This document shows positions 13,246-26,064 of a stretch of DNA of 35,429 bases, in pieces. Positions within the stretch are counted from its first letter, which is position 1, and the number at the start of each line of letters is the position of its first letter. Source of the DNA: Candidatus Poseidoniaceae archaeon. Lineage in GTDB: Archaea > Thermoplasmatota > Poseidoniia > Poseidoniales > Poseidoniaceae. Made by a program: the position numbers and the translations under genes. The stretch lies in the NCBI GenBank assembly GCA_028821785.1, contig JAPKFC010000012.1:1-35429 (forward strand), read 5' to 3'. Below the pieces are notes generated by a model. The model ran no database searches. It saw nothing but the letters and a program-made list of their open reading frames with translations, and was not told the DNA's origin.

Positions 13246-13306
13246 TGGGCGCATTTTGTGTTACAAGTTAACAGCCATAAAGGCTTCGTCATATGACCTC
13301 TTCGGG

Positions 13307-14797
13307 ATGGTTATGGCGGACAAGAGACCCTTCGATTTTTCTAGCGCCGAGCAAGAAATCGACCGTTTGAAGCGGCCAATAAAATCAGTTATTTGGCAAG
13401 CCCCAAAGGGGGAATCTTTCACACTCAGTATTCCCCCAACTGTTTACCCCCCTAGAGAAGATACTGACCTTCTTGCTAATGCCATTGTTAGGATCGGTGC
13501 TGGGCGTGGAAAAAGATGTCTTGAAATCGGTTGCGGTAGTGGAGCACTGTCCCTATTAGCCGCTCGCCAAGGATGGAAGGTAAAGGCCTGCGACATCAAC
13601 CCATTTGCGGTGATGGCATCCCGACATTCAGCTGAAATTGCAGATATTGATCTTGATATTCAAGAAGGTGGTCCTGGCCCTAAGGAAGATGGTGAAATAA
13701 ATCAGTGGTCTGGCCAAGAACTGCATGACCTAATCATCTGGAATTTACCATATCTTGGATTGCCAAGTTCGGAAGATGATGTGCTTGGACCATTTGAAGA
13801 AGCCGCATTACTAGACACCGACTCAATTGGACTTGTTTCACGACTAGTAAAAATGATATCCACTGGAAAATTGATGACCCCCACTGGAATGGCTCTTATT
13901 TTAGTTTCAAATAATCAAAGAGGAAACGATACAAAAAGAATTTGCCTTCAAAATGGCTTGTCGTGCCGTGAATTTTCAAGCAAGCAATTCGAGGATGGTG
14001 AGGAATTAACCGTATATGCAATTTGGCAACCATTCTCAAATTGCCCAGTTAGCATACTTGATGAAGTTGATTCGACAAACAAAATGTTGCTCGATAATGG
14101 GGGGATAATTGGCGCCTCCATTAAGGCAAAAAAGCAACTTGAAGGGAAAGGGAGGCGAGGACGTACTTGGACTAGCGAGACGAATTCATTTGCAGGTTCT
14201 TGGATTGTTCACGATGGAAAAGGCGAACTGGTCCACTCCGACCTACAGTTGGTGGGTGGGCTTGCTGTTGTTGATGCCATAAGAGCAATTTCAAGCAGTG
14301 AGTGCCATGAACGAATTAGACTCAAATGGCCAAACGATATCCTATTAGAAAATGAATCTGCTGAATGGGCCAAAGTAGCTGGTGTTTTACTTGAAGGGAG
14401 AAGCATTGCATCCGAAATAAGGTTGGTTCTTGGAATCGGGGCTAATATTTTTTCTGCACAACCCTTAGAAAAGCAAGATTTTAAGATCGCAACACTAAAT
14501 CAAAGTCTGAATTTAGATATTGATTTTAATCAATTTTCATCGGTGATTAGTGCGGCTTTATCCTCGCTGCTCGAACAAAGGATCAACATTCCCAATTATT
14601 CCTCTACCAAACTGCTTAAAATCACTTTAGAAGAAATTAACAACACTGTAAGTTCATTGGGCAATCCAATCTATAGAAAGGATGTATGTGAGGTCATTGG
14701 ATTAGATGAAAAGGGTCATCTACGAGTAAAAACTACTTCTGGTGAACTATTGAATCTAGACGAAGGTGAAGATTTAATTTGGCCCAAATATAATTGA
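13307..14797 (+). CDS. Fusion of PrmC/HemK-type methyltransferase and biotin-protein ligase
   Basis: Residues 1-240 (from ATG 13307) form an SAM-dependent methyltransferase. It has YPPREDT (47-53), the SAM loop EIGCGSGALSL (73-83) and NLPY (146-149), in place of the NPPY typical of release-factor glutamine methyltransferases. Residues 247-496 form a biotin-protein ligase of the BirA catalytic type: DSTN (255-258), GKGRRGRTW (280-288), KWPND (340-344), KVAGVLLEG (356-364) and GIGANIF (376-382). The ligase makes biotinyl-AMP and attaches biotin to a carrier lysine; the likely target is the carrier protein at 33295. No N-terminal DNA-binding helix of the BirA repressor type is present. An upstream TTG at 13256 extends the frame but adds nothing conserved; ATG 13313 is also possible. 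Confidence 0.88.
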   Translation: MVMADKRPFDFSSAEQEIDRLKRPIKSVIWQAPKGESFTLSIPPTVYPPREDTDLLANAIVRIGAGRGKRCLEIGCGSGALSLLAARQGWKVKACDINPFAVMASRHSAEIADIDLDIQEGGPGPKEDGEINQWSGQELHDLIIWNLPYLGLPSSEDDVLGPFEEAALLDTDSIGLVSRLVKMISTGKLMTPTGMALILVSNNQRGNDTKRICLQNGLSCREFSSKQFEDGEELTVYAIWQPFSNCPVSILDEVDSTNKMLLDNGGIIGASIKAKKQLEGKGRRGRTWTSETNSFAGSWIVHDGKGELVHSDLQLVGGLAVVDAIRAISSSECHERIRLKWPNDILLENESAEWAKVAGVLLEGRSIASEIRLVLGIGANIFSAQPLEKQDFKIATLNQSLNLDIDFNQFSSVISAALSSLLEQRINIPNYSSTKLLKITLEEINNTVSSLGNPIYRKDVCEVIGLDEKGHLRVKTTSGELLNLDEGEDLIWPKYN

Positions 14798-18627: not shown

Positions 18628-18860
18628 TCACTGCACCTATCTCGGGCAGGAGTGCGCAGTGAATCAAACCTTTGATTGCTAGACTCAAAAATATTGTAAA
18701 AATGGCTGATTTGACATTCTCGGGTGAATTAAATTTTAGCGGAATTACTTCGTATTATCCGGATATTCAAAACGCAACACTGCGAGGCATTTATTCATCA
18801 CAATTGCAAGCAATGTTTAAGGGGTCTATCCAAGTCGCTAAGAACATCTTGGGTGTGGCT

Positions 18861-19676
18861 ATGCGAGTTGGCTCTTTTTCTACGAGAATTACACTTCTTC
18901 TAGGACTGGTCGCGCTATTGCTCCTTCCGAGCCTTGCAACATCATACCACACCGGCATTGGTGGGGAACAATCCAATGCTGGAGAGACTATTGATGACGT
19001 GGCAAAACAGGGTTGTTTGTGCCACAATGGTGCTGCAGATAATTCGATTCAAGTGATTCTTGACAAGGTTCCATATGCTTGGAACGCGGGTGACACATAT
19101 GAATTCCATCTGCAACTAATCGGTGGACCTGCTGGCGGGACTTACACCGCCGGATTTTCAATGAGCACTAGTGCAGGCGAACTCGCCGGCACAAATCTAC
19201 AAAATTGGCAGGAAGATGTGACAACTCTCACTCACACCGACGCATCTGCAAGCCAAGATGATCGCTCGTGGCTTTTGACATGGACTGCCCCTGCCGCAGG
19301 AGAAGGTAGCGTTAATTTCTGGATTACTGGCAACTCGGTTTCAGGAGATGGAATTCCTGGTGAAGACGACAAGTGGAATCAATTATTATTCGCCATCCCT
19401 GAGGGAGATGCTGATAGTATCGCCCTTGGAACGAGAACTTTGTTTGCTGGTGATGGAAACGTTAGCCCCCCTGAACCGGAGTCACATGGAATCGATTTGC
19501 ACAGCATGGGAGCCCCATTAAGAGCGCACTGGCTCGGATTACTCGGATTTAGTGCTGTAATCTGTGTAATCATCTTCTCAGGTCTACTGCTAAGATATGG
19601 TTTCTCCACCTCATACAAGGGACGCAGTAATGTGTTACGACTTCGCTACAAATTGATGCAGAGAGGTGACCAGTGA
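18861..19676 (+). CDS. Secreted, membrane-anchored protein with CxCH motif and beta-sandwich domain (respiratory cluster)
   Basis: From ATG 18861 the product starts with a clear signal peptide (MRVGSFSTR, then LLLGLVALLLLPSLATS). Next comes QGCLCHNG, a CxCH motif resembling a shortened c-type heme site, and a domain of about 120 residues rich in Gly, Thr and aromatic residues, like Reeler-type or anchor domains (YEFHLQLIGG, WLLTWTAP, VNFWITGN). The C-terminus has one membrane helix and a basic cytoplasmic end. The frame stays open upstream to TTG 18672 and ATG 18702, but those starts would bury the signal peptide 50-60 residues inside. It overlaps the next respiratory gene (TGATG), so it is probably an electron carrier or assembly subunit of the same complex. 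Confidence 0.75.
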   Translation: MRVGSFSTRITLLLGLVALLLLPSLATSYHTGIGGEQSNAGETIDDVAKQGCLCHNGAADNSIQVILDKVPYAWNAGDTYEFHLQLIGGPAGGTYTAGFSMSTSAGELAGTNLQNWQEDVTTLTHTDASASQDDRSWLLTWTAPAAGEGSVNFWITGNSVSGDGIPGEDDKWNQLLFAIPEGDADSIALGTRTLFAGDGNVSPPEPESHGIDLHSMGAPLRAHWLGLLGFSAVICVIIFSGLLLRYGFSTSYKGRSNVLRLRYKLMQRGDQ

Positions 19677-20119
19677 TGGACGATACAATCACTATCCTAT
19701 TGCGAGGTGTTGCAAAAGGAAACATCAGCATTGCTGATGCTAGAACTGCTTTGGAAAACGCTTCACTGACTGAAGAACAGATGCAGAAAGCAATCGACCA
19801 TGGGGTATTCAATCCTGCCGAACCGGGCTCCATCATTAGTGCAACTCTAGCCCCTTCAGGCGCATCACATTTGGCAATGTTCTTCTTCGTATGGGGATTA
19901 TTCTGGAGTTGCTACTGGTCTTTTTCATTAATCTATGGACTGTTCAACGGCTGGGATCAACAACAATTATCATTCCATTTAGCAATGACACTAACGACCA
20001 TCACGCTGATGGGAATAATCTATCTCAAATATGTCTTACCCGACACTATTATCGTCAAGTATGCTAGGAATAAGTTCGTACCTGAGCATACAAAGGACTG
20101 GAAGGAGTACAACTGGTGA
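19676..20119 (+). CDS. Small two-helix membrane subunit of the respiratory cluster
   Basis: The family was not recognised. The 147 residues begin with a soluble helical segment (residues 1-55, with ISIADARTALENASLTEEQ), then two membrane helices (about 64-87 and 100-121) and a short basic/aromatic cytoplasmic tail. ATG 19676 shares its A with the preceding stop, and GAGAGGTGA lies upstream. Its stop lies five bases before the Rieske ATG. The tight coupling suggests a small accessory subunit of the cytochrome b complex. Confidence 0.7.
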   Translation: MDDTITILLRGVAKGNISIADARTALENASLTEEQMQKAIDHGVFNPAEPGSIISATLAPSGASHLAMFFFVWGLFWSCYWSFSLIYGLFNGWDQQQLSFHLAMTLTTITLMGIIYLKYVLPDTIIVKYARNKFVPEHTKDWKEYNW

Positions 20120-20124
20120 TTGTT

Positions 20125-20973
20125 ATGTCTCGTGAATACGACCTCAAACCAGCACCGAGTGGTGAACAATCTTCTGCCAAAGCGATAGGAGATTCATTAA
20201 TCAATAGGCGCCAATTCCTTAGTTATGGATTCAATACTGCTACAGGCATATTGGCGGCTTCTCTAGGAGTTCTTGGTTTTGCATCCCTATTACTGCCGCC
20301 TACCGATAGCACCGGTGGCGACCTTGCTGCAAAATATTGGGCCAAGGGTCGTGAAGATGAAGCATGGTATGGAGCAATGCACGAGCAAGTAATGAAAAAA
20401 TCAGATTTCGTTGCTGAAGCAGCAAAGAGTTCTACCGGATCATCAGGAGCTGCTGGTGTTTGGAACGGAGTCCCGATTGTAGTCACATATGTACACCATT
20501 CCAAGAATTATGGAAGTCCTGTATCAAATGGTAAAGCAAGATTCCAATTCATGGAAGGATATGATGGTACTGGAAAGTATGTTGGCCATTTTGATGACTT
20601 GGCAGATGCAGACCCAAGATTATCCCCTTCCGAAGATTTGGTAATGATTTTTGCAAGATGTACTCATTTGTGCTGCATTCCAGGATGGCAATTAGTTTCT
20701 AACTCTTTTACTGAAGACACATGGACTCCTGGTGGAGGCGATGATGGTGGAACTAAATTATTCTGTATTTGTCATTCATCTCGTTTTGACCCTACTGCGT
20801 TAGAAATGAATTCTAATACAAATCGTTCCAATGGTGCTAAATTCAAGTACGCAGGTATTCGCAGAGCCGGTGGCCCTGCCCCTGTAGGATTGCCAATAAT
20901 TCCGATTGCCTTGAATGGCGATATTATTGAAGGATTACCAGATTATGTGGATTGGTACACATATTGCGACTGA
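20125..20973 (+). CDS. Rieske 2Fe-2S protein with Tat-type signal anchor
   Basis: This is the Rieske subunit of a quinol-oxidising cytochrome bc/b6f-type complex. Both cluster motifs are present: CTHLCC and CICHSS, giving two Cys and two His ligands plus the pair of disulfide cysteines. The first motif has Cys where Gly is common (CTHLGC), adding an unpaired cysteine. The N-terminus has a twin-arginine pattern (NRRQFLS) before a hydrophobic segment, so the folded protein is probably exported by Tat and stays anchored, with its cluster outside. ATG 20125 is chosen; a GTG at 20116 overlaps the previous stop. Cytochrome b follows 11 bases downstream. Confidence 0.93.
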   Translation: MSREYDLKPAPSGEQSSAKAIGDSLINRRQFLSYGFNTATGILAASLGVLGFASLLLPPTDSTGGDLAAKYWAKGREDEAWYGAMHEQVMKKSDFVAEAAKSSTGSSGAAGVWNGVPIVVTYVHHSKNYGSPVSNGKARFQFMEGYDGTGKYVGHFDDLADADPRLSPSEDLVMIFARCTHLCCIPGWQLVSNSFTEDTWTPGGGDDGGTKLFCICHSSRFDPTALEMNSNTNRSNGAKFKYAGIRRAGGPAPVGLPIIPIALNGDIIEGLPDYVDWYTYCD

Positions 20974-20984
20974 GGTGAAATGAA

Positions 20985-21851
20985 ATGACAACAATGTTCT
21001 GGATTCTTTGGTTCTTCATCGCTTTCGTAGTGGTTCTTGTAGCATTCACCCTGCGCAAGGAATCAGAAGATATGCCTCGTAGAGACATTCTTCGTGCTGT
21101 TGAGTCAACCGGAAAAATGGGTGTGGCAGAGAGGTCATTCCTTTGGGTATTCTCTTGGCTAGATACTAGATTTAGATTACAAGACTATTGGAATATGTCG
21201 AAAGGTGCTTACTACAATATGCACAGACAAATGCCGCTTAGTCACGCTGAAAAATACAAGTTGAGAATCATTTGGTACTGGTATCCACTATACTGTCTAG
21301 GTGGAATCTCATTCCTATCATTCATTATTTTGGTAATTACCGGAACTGTTCTTGGGATTTATTACGTACCTGGTGGGGAAGGTGACCCTGCCCCTGCATA
21401 TGCCAGTATGCAATATATCATGACCGAATTGCCATTTGGATATATCCTTCGTGCAGTTCACCATTGGGGTACTCACTTCATGGTAGCAAGTGTATTTCTA
21501 CATATGTGTAGAGTTTACTTTACAGGAGCATACAGAAACCCTCGTGAATTAAACTGGCTTATCGGAGTCGCACTAATGTTCCTAACCATCTTCTTTGGTT
21601 ACTCCGGATATTTACTGCCGTGGGATTCCTTGGCATATGGTGCTGCAGTTATCGGAATTAATATGGCTAACTCATCACCATTGATCGGAAAGATTGCTTC
21701 AACTGCTCTATTCGGCGGCACATCACTTACTCCTAGGACAGTTACAAGAATGTACTTTATTCACGTATTTATTCTACCTGTGATTGTGACATTATTGATC
21801 ATCATTCATTTGTTTATTGTTTGGGTACAGGGCATTGCGGAGCCACATTGA
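20985..21851 (+). CDS. Cytochrome b, N-terminal (b6-like) subunit with candidate heme-ci cysteine
   Basis: This is the diheme membrane core of a quinol-oxidising complex. The heme ligand pairs are H159/H173 (VHHWGTH and FLHM) and H260/H275 (YFIHVFILP and IIIHLF). Spacings of 14 and 15 match cytochrome b6 and Bacillus-type proteins more than mitochondrial bc1. YCLGGI at 103-108 puts a cysteine (C104) where b6 has the Cys that binds the extra heme c(n)/c(i) at the inner quinone site. An extra N-terminal helix (residues 3-23) precedes the core. It is split after the fourth core helix, like b6f; the missing C-terminal half starts the next gene. GAGGTGA gives a good ribosome site. Confidence 0.95.
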   Translation: MTTMFWILWFFIAFVVVLVAFTLRKESEDMPRRDILRAVESTGKMGVAERSFLWVFSWLDTRFRLQDYWNMSKGAYYNMHRQMPLSHAEKYKLRIIWYWYPLYCLGGISFLSFIILVITGTVLGIYYVPGGEGDPAPAYASMQYIMTELPFGYILRAVHHWGTHFMVASVFLHMCRVYFTGAYRNPRELNWLIGVALMFLTIFFGYSGYLLPWDSLAYGAAVIGINMANSSPLIGKIASTALFGGTSLTPRTVTRMYFIHVFILPVIVTLLIIIHLFIVWVQGIAEPH

Positions 21852-21870: not shown

Positions 21871-24684
21871 ATGGGATTAGTAGAAAATCTTGGAAGAGTT
21901 GCTTCCTCCTACATGGATGAGAAGGAGAACTTGCAAAGTGTTAGTGAAAAGAGAAAGCGTACACCAATGGGTCATGCTTTTTGGCCACATGAAGTTCTTC
22001 GCGACGCACTTATCTTTGCGTTTATGACTGCGGTATTATTATTCTATTCTTGGCTAATTCCACCACCATTGCACAGTGCTGCTGACCCATATGCTCAAGC
22101 GGGATTCGTTTTCCCTGATTGGTATGTATTATTCTCATATGGTTACCTTCGCTGGGGAGAATATTTACCACAATTTTCCGTACCTACTGGCTTCCTAGGA
22201 GATATATTTGGCCAACCTTCGTTCCCTTGGAACGCTGCATGGTGGGGAGCAGCTCTTACTGGAGTCCCAGTAGGAATTCTAACACTTCCACCATTGCTTG
22301 GAGGGCGTGAAAAGAGACCTGTAGAAGACCCTTGGTTTGCAAGTGCAGGAGTGGTATATATTGCGCACGTGTGGTTTATCTCTGTCTTTTCGATTAATAT
22401 TTTCTTACAGTTATATGGCAATAATAGGTCTGATTATTGTAAATTGGATTCTCATGGAGACCTGTTATGTGGTGTAAGAGAACCCTGGATTGCGGATGCA
22501 TTCAATGCCATTCCATGGGTCTTAACTGGGATTTTAATATGGATTGTCATATATTTCGTGACTCGATCTATGATGGTAAAGGCTTGGGGTGCTGGCTTTA
22601 CTCCAGCACATGGCAAAAGAATTCTTGTTGGAGCATTGATGGTTTCAACTGCAATATCAGTTTCTACTTGGGATGTTTATGATGATGGTTTCTGGGATGC
22701 AAAGGGATTGCTTACAATTGCTGATTACGGTGAACTTGAAGAGATGAGGTCACAACCAGTTGATGTTCATGTTCATTCTGCCAATGAATTTACCGACTCG
22801 CAGGGTTGGTCTTCTACAGAGATAGTACCAACCACTGCTTGGCTCGATTGGAATTTGTACCAGCCCGCTAGATATATTATTACTGATTTTGGAGATGCCA
22901 ACGGGCACCAAGATGCTGCTAATGGAATAAATGCGGCATTGGTTACAGATTCATTCTCTGGAGATGTTGAATGGATTGCTGCAGGTTCATTTACAGTTAC
23001 TGAAGATACAACTTATTTCCCTCACGGGCATCACAAGTCTGTAGAAACAATTACCACTGATATGGCTTGTGAGTATAGATCTAGTGAAAGAAAAATCAAT
23101 GAACAATCTACTGCAGATATGCTAACTTCAACCTTTATGCTTACTGACTCATCTGGAAAGACCGTTTCATCATTCACAAACTGTGATGGAGCAACAGTTG
23201 AACTCAAAGTAGGAACATATGACTATCAAATGACGGTCCAAGCAACTGGTTTACTTGCTCAAAATTCCTCTATTACAACTGAAACTTCTATGAATATCGC
23301 TTCTTTCCAACCACTATTGGTTTGGGACGATGATGCACACGAGAGTCTTGCAGGGACGAGTGTCAACCTTTCAAGTTCTGAGGATATGGTTCTTGGAAAT
23401 GGCAAGTTCTCTCCTATTGAAAATCCATCATACCATAGAAATCCTAAATCAATGGATGCAAAACTAACCTATGCTATGTTTATTCCATGTCTAACATTCG
23501 GTGCCCTTGTATTCGTATTACTAAGATACATGGCTCGTGGATATGAGTTTGAGATGAACAAGTGCTACGGCTGTGACCTTTGTGACGATGCTTGCCCTGT
23601 TCGCTTATTCACTGGTGGAGACAAATTAAACATCATTTACAATTCTTGGAATAATGAGGATGATGGTGTCCCGATGTATTCATGTTTGACATGTTCTGCT
23701 TGTACTAACGCCTGTCCGCAACTTGTCGATTACGATTCTTATGTTGACATTAGGCGTGGACTAATCGTGGGTGCATCTCAAGCAGAGATACCTCACACAG
23801 TCCTTCAGGCAGTTCTTGCTGCTGAAGCAGAGGAAGAAGCTGATGCTGACTTCATCACAACTGAAGATTACCCAATTACTTCCAAGGTGGGATACTATCC
23901 TGGATGTGTTGACTATCTTGACCAAGAGATGGTATTTTCACATGTCAATGATGGTGAGATGAACTTAGGAGCCTCAACAACCGCTGCTTTCACTTTGTTT
24001 GAAGAGATGGGCAATGAAGTTTCATATCTTGGAAGAGACTTCCTAAAGTGCTGTGGTCACGATCAAAAGTGGCAAGGTCTTGATGAAGTATTTGAAAAAC
24101 TAAAGGCATACAACCAACGCAAGATTGTGGAATCGGGAATAGACACCTTAGTATCTTCTTGTGCTGAATGTTTCAGAACTTTTGCTCGAGATTATGAACT
24201 AGAGGGTATCAAGGTAATGCACACAACTGAATACTTAACAGAGCAAGGATTCGATATGGACTTGAGTACTGAAGAGACTACTGTAACATATCATGATCCA
24301 TGTAGATTAGGACGTCAGATGGGAGTCTATGATGAACCACGTGAATTGATTACTGCCGTTGAAGGAGTTAATTTGGTTGAGATGGAACACAGTGGAGAGG
24401 ATGCAATGTGTTGTGGTGTTTCAAGCATGATGTCATGTAATGAAGATGCTCGTTCACTTCGTGTCTCTCGTATGGAAGAAATCCGTGCTACTGGAGCAGA
24501 TACGATGATCACATCATGTCCAAAGTGCGTTGCTCACTTTGAGTGTTTGAAGTTTGAAGGTGATGAAAAGTATGCAGATATTGAAATCCTTGATGTTGTT
24601 ACATTCTTGGCAAAACAAGTTGATGCAAAGAAATCTGAAGCAGTTGCTGCAAATACTGATGCGCTAGACCAAATTAAGGCTTGA
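21871..24684 (+). CDS. Fusion: cytochrome b C-terminal half + extracytoplasmic domain + HdrD-like iron-sulfur module
   Basis: Residues 40-265 resemble the C-terminal half of cytochrome b (subunit IV): PDWYVL at 82-87 corresponds to the quinol-site PEWY motif, with about five hydrophobic helices. Residues 268-527 are a hydrophilic domain predicted outside the cell. A helix at about 529-551 returns to the cytoplasm. Then come two [4Fe-4S] motifs (CYGCDLCDDACP 565-576; CLTCSACTNACP 605-616) and two complete CCG domains: C679, C727-C728, C764, C767 and C811, C847-C848, C883, C886. That order is that of HdrD or GlpC-type subunits, whose CCG motifs can bind non-cubane clusters. GGAGG precedes the ATG. 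I infer electron transfer between a cytoplasmic redox partner and the quinone pool. Confidence 0.9.
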   Translation: MGLVENLGRVASSYMDEKENLQSVSEKRKRTPMGHAFWPHEVLRDALIFAFMTAVLLFYSWLIPPPLHSAADPYAQAGFVFPDWYVLFSYGYLRWGEYLPQFSVPTGFLGDIFGQPSFPWNAAWWGAALTGVPVGILTLPPLLGGREKRPVEDPWFASAGVVYIAHVWFISVFSINIFLQLYGNNRSDYCKLDSHGDLLCGVREPWIADAFNAIPWVLTGILIWIVIYFVTRSMMVKAWGAGFTPAHGKRILVGALMVSTAISVSTWDVYDDGFWDAKGLLTIADYGELEEMRSQPVDVHVHSANEFTDSQGWSSTEIVPTTAWLDWNLYQPARYIITDFGDANGHQDAANGINAALVTDSFSGDVEWIAAGSFTVTEDTTYFPHGHHKSVETITTDMACEYRSSERKINEQSTADMLTSTFMLTDSSGKTVSSFTNCDGATVELKVGTYDYQMTVQATGLLAQNSSITTETSMNIASFQPLLVWDDDAHESLAGTSVNLSSSEDMVLGNGKFSPIENPSYHRNPKSMDAKLTYAMFIPCLTFGALVFVLLRYMARGYEFEMNKCYGCDLCDDACPVRLFTGGDKLNIIYNSWNNEDDGVPMYSCLTCSACTNACPQLVDYDSYVDIRRGLIVGASQAEIPHTVLQAVLAAEAEEEADADFITTEDYPITSKVGYYPGCVDYLDQEMVFSHVNDGEMNLGASTTAAFTLFEEMGNEVSYLGRDFLKCCGHDQKWQGLDEVFEKLKAYNQRKIVESGIDTLVSSCAECFRTFARDYELEGIKVMHTTEYLTEQGFDMDLSTEETTVTYHDPCRLGRQMGVYDEPRELITAVEGVNLVEMEHSGEDAMCCGVSSMMSCNEDARSLRVSRMEEIRATGADTMITSCPKCVAHFECLKFEGDEKYADIEILDVVTFLAKQVDAKKSEAVAANTDALDQIKA

Positions 24685-24751
24685 GTCTTTTTGGCTCTCA
24701 ATATTTTCAAGTCACCCCTAGTGCTAAGAAGTGTTGTCACTAGCGCCATTC

Positions 24752-25426
24752 ATGAACAGACCTGCTTTGTATGTACTTACAATCGGCATCGGTTTGTACA
24801 TCAGTGCTACTGGTCTGAATGGAATTATTCCAGACCTTTGGGCTGAATGGCCAGTCAACATTTGGTGCTGGTCTATATTTGGATATATATTCTATAAGAC
24901 CACTCGAAAAGAACGGATAGAAATGTTGACAGTGTTGGCATTTGCCACCCCAATGGAATTATTCTTCAGTGAAGTTTGGCTAATCTATGAATACCAACGT
25001 GGACTAATGCCACTATTCGTTCCAGTCGGTCATTATTTCCTATTTGATCTTGGTAGGATTATTGCTAATAAGATGAGAGAAAACCTCGCCATGCTTTCCT
25101 TAATGCCATTTATTCCTCTTGTCGCTTATGGCGTATACAGTGGAGGCGATACATCAGCACTATTCCTCCTAATACTCGTACTCGCATTCACAAAATGGGG
25201 CCCTCAACCTCGATTGTATGCTGCGATGGCTTGGGCGGCCTTAGCCATGGAATTGTGGGGCACACACTTGACCAATTGGACTTGGGCCAACGAAGTACCA
25301 TGGACGGGGTTAACCGCTTGGAATCCACCTCTATTGGTTGGTGCATTCTATTGTATTGGAGATTTATTAGTCAACCTAAGTGTTGCCAAGTTTGAAAGAG
25401 AAGGGATGGACGAGGTGGTAGCATGA
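24752..25426 (+). CDS. Integral membrane protein of unknown function (respiratory cluster)
   Basis: The family was not recognised. The 224 residues contain about seven hydrophobic segments with few charged loops. Acidic and histidine residues lie in or near helices (FATPMELFFSEVW, VGHYFLFDLG, MAWAALAMELWGTHL), which could serve quinone or proton chemistry. ATG 24752 is preferred to a TTG at 24731. It starts 67 bases after the HdrD-like fusion, and its end overlaps the ferredoxin start (ATGA), so it is probably translated with the cluster. A membrane subunit linking ferredoxin to the complex is plausible but unproven. Confidence 0.65.
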   Translation: MNRPALYVLTIGIGLYISATGLNGIIPDLWAEWPVNIWCWSIFGYIFYKTTRKERIEMLTVLAFATPMELFFSEVWLIYEYQRGLMPLFVPVGHYFLFDLGRIIANKMRENLAMLSLMPFIPLVAYGVYSGGDTSALFLLILVLAFTKWGPQPRLYAAMAWAALAMELWGTHLTNWTWANEVPWTGLTAWNPPLLVGAFYCIGDLLVNLSVAKFEREGMDEVVA

Positions 25427-25755
25427 CCACCAGTGACGAGTTGGCCAAGAGACGAGCGGCTGAGGCTTTGGCCATCCGCACCTCCCTAAATCGTCAGCGT
25501 GGAGAACAACGCGCTAATACAAAGGGTGGAGAAGGAACTGTTGCATATGTAACTGCAGAGAAATGTATTGGCTGCGACCAATGTACAATAGTCTGTGATG
25601 ATGATGCCATTGACCTATACAAAGTAGAGATGGCCAGTCAATTCATCAAAGTGGAAAGTAATCGTAAGGCCAAGATAATTCGCGATGCGTGTACTGGCTG
25701 TAGATTGTGCGTACTCGCTTGTCCTACAGATGCGATAACAATGATTGATTTGTGA
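25423..25755 (+). CDS. 2[4Fe-4S] ferredoxin-like protein
   Basis: The 110-residue protein carries two CxxCxxCxxxC motifs: CIGCDQCTIVC at about 47-57 and CTGCRLCVLAC at about 88-98. The second is followed by the usual Pro; the first has Asp there. A charged N-terminal extension of about 40 residues precedes them, and there is no signal peptide or membrane helix, so it acts in the cytoplasm. Such proteins pass electrons between clusters. ATG 25423 overlaps the previous stop (ATGA), with GAGGTGG upstream. The setting beside an HdrD-like fusion makes it a candidate electron donor or acceptor for that module. Confidence 0.9.
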   Translation: MTTSDELAKRRAAEALAIRTSLNRQRGEQRANTKGGEGTVAYVTAEKCIGCDQCTIVCDDDAIDLYKVEMASQFIKVESNRKAKIIRDACTGCRLCVLACPTDAITMIDL

Positions 25756-25764
25756 GGGATTACC

Positions 25765-26064
25765 ATGACAAAAGATGACAATGAAGAAGCTCAAAGATTC
25801 GGAGGAGAATTCGGACCATACCGCAAGGAGGGGACTCCTGGTGTCAGCCTTGGAACATTCAAGACATTGGTATGGACTTCCAATATCGGTGGTCTGTTAC
25901 TATGTGCATTATCCCTTGAAATGCTATTCGTTCGCAAAATGTTTGGATGGGGTCTGTTGTCCCTAATAGCTGCAGTTGCTATCGCATTATTCCCTTCAAA
26001 TTATGAAATAGTTGGAATGGGTGATGATTCAATCACCAGTGATGATCAAAGCCCGCAACAATGA
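25765..26064 (+). CDS. Small membrane protein at the end of the respiratory cluster
   Basis: No family was recognised. The 99 residues have a soluble charged N-terminus, two adjacent hydrophobic segments (about 34-50 and 55-73) and an acidic tail. GAGGG lies upstream of the ATG and the gap to the ferredoxin stop is nine bases, so it is probably co-transcribed as the last gene of the cluster. Only 17 bases separate it from the convergent glutamate-cysteine ligase gene. Confidence 0.65.
   Translation: MTKDDNEEAQRFGGEFGPYRKEGTPGVSLGTFKTLVWTSNIGGLLLCALSLEMLFVRKMFGWGLLSLIAAVAIALFPSNYEIVGMGDDSITSDDQSPQQ

Follow-up and report, generated by a model that had tools for sequence, protein, structure and literature searches.

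Several described redox systems join a membrane cytochrome to a set of iron-sulphur (Fe-S) clusters. In mycobacteria, the EtfD/EMO protein (Rv0338c / MSMEG_0690; PDB 9ojn) is a membrane cytochrome fused to two [4Fe-4S] motifs and two CCG domains, and its cluster chain leads to menaquinone, according to sections of one report (PMC13083937). The b6f-like complexes of anammox bacteria (Kustd1480-1485 and Kuste4569-4574) contain cytochrome b6, a five-helix subunit IV and a Rieske protein, and their inner face bears an Fe-S/redox module (sections of PMC12954380). The gene described here resembles both. It lies at 21871-24684 on the forward strand of the window, a stretch of 35,429 nucleotides from a Candidatus Poseidoniaceae archaeon (assembly GCA_028821785.1, contig JAPKFC010000012.1, positions 1 to 35,429), and the source genome belongs to Marine Group II (Poseidoniales). 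The C-terminal cytochrome b subunit of a Rieske, cytochrome b6 and subunit IV set is joined in it, at what would be the cytoplasmic C-terminus, to a module resembling EtfD and the HdrBC part of heterodisulfide reductase (Hdr).

The fusion differs from each of the known systems. The membrane part of EtfD is a five-helix domain of its own with haem b, whereas the fusion has subunit IV with a PDWY motif. EtfD also carries Thr and His changes in its first CCG domain, while the CCG motifs of the fusion are unchanged. In the anammox complexes, the inner module is a flavin NAD(P) oxidoreductase, and multihaem cytochromes c are found outside, as far as the same sections go (PMC12954380); here, HdrBC/EtfD-like clusters share the chain of subunit IV, and there is a ferredoxin in addition. 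Pfam and NCBIfam scans of nine operon-region proteins gave no flavin or NAD domain, and the NCBIfam models named for NAD enzymes match only ferredoxin stretches of these proteins.

With cytochrome b6f, the locus shares the split cytochrome b, the haem c_n cysteine, PDWY in place of PEWY, and the Rieske protein. Unlike b6f, it has no cytochrome f or c1 that these scans recognise among the nine proteins, it has gained an HdrBC-like module and an outside domain, and its operon includes choice-of-anchor V and DUF7318-like proteins. HdrDE and HdrBC have the same domain order, two [4Fe-4S] motifs and then two CCG domains, with the same ten CCG cysteines. However, the membrane partner here is cytochrome b6/subunit IV rather than HdrE, and the scores are far below the Hdr cut-offs. 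The operon content thus confirms the pairing with a Rieske/cytochrome b6 set that the original prediction proposed, and it rules out a cytochrome of the HdrE/NarI type.

Literature searches aimed at a Rieske/cytochrome b subunit fused to an HdrD-type module gave no description among the matches listed, with subscription journals little covered. This is consistent with the undescribed complex that had been suspected. The claim of novelty holds for part of the system. An inside-facing redox module on a b6f-like complex has a precedent in anammox bacteria (sections of PMC12954380); as far as the searches go, the type of module, its covalent link and the ferredoxin partner are new. The favoured reading, with chances put at about even, is a b6f-type complex III with a cytoplasmic HdrBC/EtfD-like module, in which electrons would pass from ferredoxin or flavodoxin through the clusters and haem c_n/b_n to the n-side quinone, alongside quinol oxidation at the PDWY/Rieske site.

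Domains of the fusion protein

The open reading frame (ORF) starts with ATG, encodes 937 amino acids and is open from start to stop. The domain order given in the original prediction is upheld by the ORF, Pfam, hydropathy and alignment.

The protein begins with a subunit-IV-like membrane part (residues 44-269; 22000-22677, +). Hydropathy places its five helices at residues of about 46-64, 126-144, 161-179, 213-231 and 251-269, and the PDWY motif is found at residues 82-85 (nucleotides 22114-22125). This half is assigned to subunit IV because it follows cytochrome b6, contains PDWY and has homologues that are recognised as such (Cytochrom_B_C in locus L176 and, below cut-off, cytb6_f_IV in L136). 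The window protein's own subunit-IV half has no Pfam match at E-values up to 0.01.

About 260 residues separate the fifth helix from a return helix at residues 532-553 (23464-23529, +), which hydropathy locates at 532-550. They form an extracytoplasmic domain (residues 270-527; 22678-23451, +) that is rich in beta structure. AlphaFold2 models a block over residues 291-520 with a predicted local distance difference test (pLDDT) of 67-92. The domain has a conserved cysteine pair, 400/438, of which Cys438 is missing in six of 85 rows from family f1. (Family f1 is the Poseidoniaceae; both f1 and f2 belong to the Poseidoniales, and f3, f22 and f25 lie outside the order.) A redox role for this domain was considered and rejected: the fold search gave only weak matches to GOLD-domain-like beta-sandwiches, and other families carry other outside domains. 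Two of these are Laminin_G_3, within the subunit IV of family f21 (L176, 4994-6733), and the Ig-like Big_5, which precedes cytochrome b6 in f22 (L165, 10086-11975).

The Fe-S module makes up the rest of the chain. Pfam recognises a dicluster [4Fe-4S] stretch at residues 561-617 (Fer4_8/Fer4_9), followed by CCG twice (E-value 7.5e-24). The two [4Fe-4S] motifs (C565-C615; 23563-23715, +) have cysteines 565/568/571/575 and 605/608/611/615. CCG domain 1 (C679-C767, CCGHD ... CAEC; 23905-24171, +) has cysteines 679, 727, 728, 764 and 767, and CCG domain 2 (C811-C886, DPC ... CCG ... CPKC; 24301-24528, +) has cysteines 811, 847, 848, 883 and 886. Both five-cysteine sites are therefore complete, as had been predicted.

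Single-chain AlphaFold2 models were made of the full-length protein (pLDDT 56.6) and of the return helix with the module (60.6). These models were used for fold ranking and for the outside domain only; docking cannot be seen in single chains.

Conservation, relatives and the junction

Within the order, 241 of 243 sampled genomes match the fusion protein, 229 of them at a best E-value of 1e-100 or better. The other 12 have weaker matches only, which for most are probably the size of a paralogue, and in this search G236 and G177 gave no match. The closest records in public genomes, among the matches listed, are 97% identical across the entire protein. In the plasmid collection, 71 records match; none covers 80% of the query, and the ten listed match the module only.

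A total of 100 Poseidoniales loci were compared: 20 fetched by place (15 from f2 and 5 from f1) and 80 kept of 308 confirmed in a genome scan. The f1/f2 set holds 99 locus sequences, 98 of them distinct (L109 and L133 are the same), with near-duplicates also present, and two f1 rows (L097 and L105) are cut by the contig start. The fusion is a single ORF in all 20 loci fetched by place. In the scan loci, the membrane and CCG parts share one open frame in 79 of 80. No stop or frameshift thus separates membrane and HdrD parts in 99 of the 100 loci, and L098, the remaining one, is broken within the outside domain. A split-gene artefact was considered and rejected, as the stops inside some matches are the genes' own ends in the loci checked. 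The genome lists also contain breaks within contigs in G059 and G134, and further genes are cut by contig ends.

All 18 cluster cysteines are unchanged in 102 rows (85 from f1, 15 from f2, and one each from f22 and f25). Between the window and the f2 loci, the Fe-S part is about 74-80% identical, compared with about 42-46% for residues 1-530. Both observations speak against the module being a remnant with a structural or regulatory role that exchanges no electrons with the cytochrome, an explanation so improbable as to be nearly negligible.

The comparison genomes lie within Thermoplasmatota. When the membrane half was used as the query, 142 of 389 of these genomes gave a match, 20 of them outside Poseidoniales, and the gene context was inspected in 19 of the 20 (all except G276). 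The full fusion is found in three: G266 of f22 (789 amino acids), and G274 and G279 of f25 (606 amino acids). The gene of G279 is cut by a contig end, and locus L168 is the broken half of that genome's own fusion.

A different arrangement is found in family f3, a sister lineage within the class that is probably Marine Group III. In seven f3 genomes, a single gene of 342-378 amino acids encodes subunit IV together with both [4Fe-4S] motifs (in G473, where the start is mechanical, it has 430), and the gene after it encodes the CCG pair. The split is seen at the ORF level in six of the seven, and from the frames in G245; an eighth genome, G376, has no match to the membrane half. Homologues of the fusion are thus not always two genes, being fused in Poseidoniales, f22 and f25, although the CCG pair is a separate neighbouring gene in f3. 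Judging from f3, the complex does not require all its parts to be linked covalently.

Nine further genomes, from seven families, have a plain subunit IV after cytochrome b6 with no such cluster motif. These unfused proteins have tails of the YExxLNxxYYKxR type, with f23 more diverged. Tails such as GYEFNLNRTYYKVR followed by a stop can be compared with the fused sequence GYEFEMNKCYGCDLC, in which the first cluster begins about ten residues past the last helix. The unfused proteins end where the fused clusters begin, so the gain or loss of the clusters happened at a single, sharply defined position just behind the last helix.

In the CCG tree, the modules of the fused lineages group together in a single clade (support 100/99). 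The cytochrome b6 tree also separates fused from unfused lineages, with a support of 63/20 (32 of 39 rows; long branches flagged). Of the two trees, that of the CCG modules supports the fused set firmly, and that of cytochrome b6 agrees weakly.

Electron partners and direction

The core of the complex is encoded directly upstream. Cytochrome b6, the N-terminal half of cytochrome b (20985-21851, +; PF00033, E-value 1.5e-41), aligns with cyanobacterial b6f (1vf5, E-value 9.1e-44), with four haem-ligand histidines and a cysteine in register. This YCLGG cysteine is taken to be the position that carries haem c_n in b6f. All 93 f1/f2 loci in which the motif could be located have it, as do f22, f25 and group g23 of f3. 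Among unfused rows it is present in one of eight, the other seven having Ser, Thr or Ala. The module and the haem c_n cysteine therefore co-occur, with exceptions both ways. The residues D83, W84 and Y85 of PDWY are present in all 102 rows. The Rieske [2Fe-2S] protein (20116-20973, +) contains CTHLCC ... CICHSS, and its best evidence is a match to NCBIfam Rieske_proteo (E-value 4.8e-9), below the equivalog cut-off. It has no Pfam match at an E-value of 0.01 and passes no NCBIfam cut-off. Both Rieske motifs are present in 88 of 91 loci with a match, and one more has an X in a motif.

The orientation of subunit IV in the membrane is known. Together with the helix count and the charge pattern, it would place the module inside. 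There, at the cytoplasmic face, the module would be close to the n-side quinone site and, wherever the cysteine is kept, to haem c_n. For b6f, ferredoxin-driven cyclic flow by way of n-side quinone reduction has been proposed. A comparable path can be drawn for the fusion. Reduced ferredoxin would be made by 2-oxoacid:ferredoxin oxidoreductase (POR), and a small 2x[4Fe-4S] protein would relay electrons from it, or from flavodoxin. The electrons would then pass through the CCG clusters, the two [4Fe-4S] clusters, or both, to haem c_n or haem b, and quinone would be reduced at the n-side site. Oxidation of the quinol at PDWY would follow the usual Q-cycle, in which electrons leave towards the outside through the Rieske protein. 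Such a complex would be a ferredoxin:quinone and a quinol:acceptor oxidoreductase in one. What the sequences establish is the gene structure, its conservation, its context and the junction; the electron paths, their direction and the cofactors are inferred.

Evidence for the partner can be found by comparing gene neighbourhoods. In the window, a 2x[4Fe-4S] ferredoxin-like protein of 110 amino acids is encoded at 25423-25755 (+; PF14697, E-value 3.7e-14; RnfB-like, E-value 1.9e-13, below cut-off). A ferredoxin gene lies at most 2.6 kb from the fusion in 89 of the 100 loci. Of 74 f1 loci that include this gene, 65 carry it and its small neighbours on the strand opposite to the fusion, yet still close. 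It is codirectional in the other nine, which are the window's own clade, L128 and L130, and in all 15 f2 loci. It is missing in 11 loci, in four of which the contig ends soon past the fusion.

In f3 and f22 a ferredoxin gene is directly behind the module. The f3 gene is longer, and its N-terminal part varies: in four of seven genomes it is like a zinc-containing ferredoxin of the Thermoplasmatales type, in two the ferredoxin is fused to a flavodoxin domain (PF00258 in G449, 94.7 bits, above cut-off; CysJ-type in G371), and in the seventh, G310, the gene is cut by the contig end. As low-potential carriers, ferredoxin and flavodoxin can classically stand in for each other. Their exchange at the same place in f3 makes ferredoxin or flavodoxin the likely partners, and the 110-residue ferredoxin is the likely point of entry or exit for the module's electrons. 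Of the partners first proposed (a thiol, lactate, glycerol-phosphate or ferredoxin), the comparative evidence thus favours the last, with flavodoxin added. Both f3 flavodoxin domains (L171 in G449 and L172 in G371) resemble the FMN domain of CysJ, with E-values of 2.8e-37 and 2.5e-37, below the whole-protein cut-off.

The CCG sites bear on what the module does with its electrons. Among solved structures, mycobacterial EtfD is the module's best match in sequence (E-value 2.9e-23) and in fold. HdrB structures take ranks 3-6 in both fold searches, above the racemase-fold matches that come next. The top NCBIfam match is TfrB, below cut-off (110.7 of 385 bits), and the heterodisulfide reductase models are far below theirs (CoB_CoM_SS_B 21.1 of 345 bits, CoB_CoM_SS_C 16.9 of 160). 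In CCG domain 1 of EtfD, Thr replaces the second Cys and a His is found in CxHC; a linear [3Fe-4S] cluster sits in a cavity shielded from the cytosol, as one section has it (PMC13083937). The fusion keeps CCG and CAEC in this domain, as in Hdr.

This difference from EtfD, and from an EtfD-like paralogue, is the best argument for a second explanation, in which the CCG sites hold true non-cubane clusters of the Hdr type and couple cytoplasmic thiol/disulfide chemistry to the quinone pool. The ranks of the HdrB structures and the constancy of the ten cysteines in Poseidoniales, f22 and f25 point the same way. In family f3, however, one domain 1 cysteine has been lost by two different changes (four g24 genomes have CSG and three g23 genomes CAEG) while the operon has been kept, so intact CCG chemistry is unnecessary for the complex as such. 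The low score of the heterodisulfide reductase B model is a further point against it. The losses in f3 favour an electron wire or port, and disulfide chemistry is a live but unlikely rival.

The paralogue, L002 (563-2668, -; G000:C82), is a separate membrane protein of 701 amino acids with [4Fe-4S] motifs, two CCG domains and the EtfD-type changes CSG and CPHC. It is a probable quinone oxidoreductase for electron transfer flavoprotein (ETF), judging from these motifs. Comparable in length, at about 706 amino acids, is an annotated CCG protein of haloarchaeal origin whose gene directly follows etfBA.

The paralogue has a bearing on a third explanation, in which electrons enter the fusion from ETF and beta-oxidation, as for EtfD/EMO. 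EtfD is the closest solved structure, and the ETF family is found in 19 of 21 genomes (the window's and 20 relatives). Against this, the genome has L002, a more obvious recipient, and ETF is ranked lower as a donor for this reason. The place of the haloarchaeal protein argues in the same direction, the tree places L002 at a long distance from the fused modules, and Pfam and NCBIfam found no ETF-like gene among the scanned operon-region proteins. Entry from ETF is very unlikely.

The same 21 genomes give the wider redox context. NuoF (PF01512) was found in none of them, while nine of 14 controls match, and POR is present in 19. Complex I thus seems to have no NADH module. Together with the count for its 49 kDa subunit given below, this pattern fits an economy based on ferredoxin. 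The absence of NuoF is at odds with the 'canonical NADH dehydrogenases' worded for Marine Group II in a passage of PMC6336850.

A number of findings weigh against ferredoxin input as drawn above. Seven of the 100 loci have no ferredoxin gene although the contig continues, for 8 kb in four and 2.9-4.8 kb in three. The zinc-ferredoxin-like matches in f3 (E-values 1.3e-16, 1.6e-17, 5.6e-18 and 1.7e-20) are partial and, at 61-74 of 280 bits, do not reach the curated cut-off. In f25, an HdrA-like flavoprotein (E-value 2.1e-17, below cut-off) is directly behind the fusion, and the 9.8 kb contig of L168 after the fusion has no match to the window's ferredoxin. In methanogens, an HdrA-type flavoprotein itself exchanges electrons with ferredoxin, in the HdrABC-Mvh complex (a section of PMC4153887).

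Other points concern the inside of the complex. Ser replaces the haem c_n cysteine in four g24 genomes of f3 that have the module, so haem c_n cannot be obligatory, and f31 has the cysteine with no module. An EtfD-like wire would not need all ten CCG cysteines, which Poseidoniales, f22 and f25 keep unchanged. In the full-length AlphaFold2 model, the membrane and [4Fe-4S] regions are of poor quality. The family of the complex I 49 kDa subunit (PF00346), present in 19 of the 21 genomes, also matches Methanocaldococcus and may thus count hydrogenase-like subunits. Finally, neither the fusion nor its neighbourhood fixes the direction of the electrons.

The same anatomy could also run in reverse. 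Quinol would be bifurcated at PDWY, one electron passing to the Rieske protein and oxygen, and the other through haem b/c_n and the module to ferredoxin or flavodoxin. This mode of operation has been proposed for the anammox b6f-like complexes, which carry their NAD(P) oxidoreductase inside, together with a worked energy balance for menaquinol (sections of PMC12954380), and a complex I with no NuoF leaves open how other low-potential needs are met. On the other hand, POR already supplies reduced ferredoxin, and an intact n-side quinone site would short-circuit bifurcation. Reverse operation is possible but doubtful. The same doubt attaches to the prospect of an oxygen-driven, electron-bifurcating complex III, by which marine archaea would make low-potential ferredoxin through aerobic respiration. 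Ferredoxin input to the n-side quinone is retained as the preferred direction.

Neighbouring genes and meaning for Marine Group II

The first gene of the conserved operon encodes a choice-of-anchor V domain protein (18672-19676, +; NCBIfam NF041895, E-value 7.5e-25), for which the TTG start is mechanical. A C-terminal hydrophobic anchor can be seen by eye, and the protein contains GCLCH. A C-x-C-H motif is present in all 85 loci with an aligned homologue within L035-L134 (CLCH in 70, CTCH in 15). It is one residue short of the haem c motif CxxCH, and f31 has CTSCH. This protein could be a stand-in for cytochrome f/c1, or it could bind another cofactor.

It is followed by a DUF7318-like membrane protein (19673-20119, +; PF24002, E-value 0.0025, below cut-off), with two hydrophobic stretches by eye and homologues in 12 of the 20 loci L165-L184. 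Behind the fusion lies a membrane protein of 231 amino acids (24731-25426, +), which matches no Pfam or NCBIfam family; in the neighbourhood comparison it accompanies the ferredoxin in f1 loci and is not found in f2 loci. A small membrane protein of 99 amino acids (25765-26064, +) usually adjoins the ferredoxin gene. Elsewhere in the window, the ORF at 13256-14797 presumably joins, by eye, a PrmC-like methyltransferase N-terminal part to a C-terminal part like a biotin-protein ligase.

Marine Group II archaea are globally abundant in the sea and have no cultured isolates, and their complex III is an open point. In a 2019 account by Tully, sections of which describe cytochrome b and Rieske genes with no canonical complex III, an orphan 'RnfB' is also reported (PMC6336850). 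Both observations could be accounted for by the fusion and the genes around it, which suggest a b6f-type complex that has a port for ferredoxin, and an RnfB-like ferredoxin beside it. The neighbouring ferredoxin would then be the RnfB of that account.

The input of ferredoxin at the n-side of b6f is debated. The fusion provides a natural, covalent test case for it, or, if the complex runs in reverse, for quinone-based bifurcation towards ferredoxin. The complex III of abundant ocean archaea may thus also exchange electrons with the ferredoxin pool.

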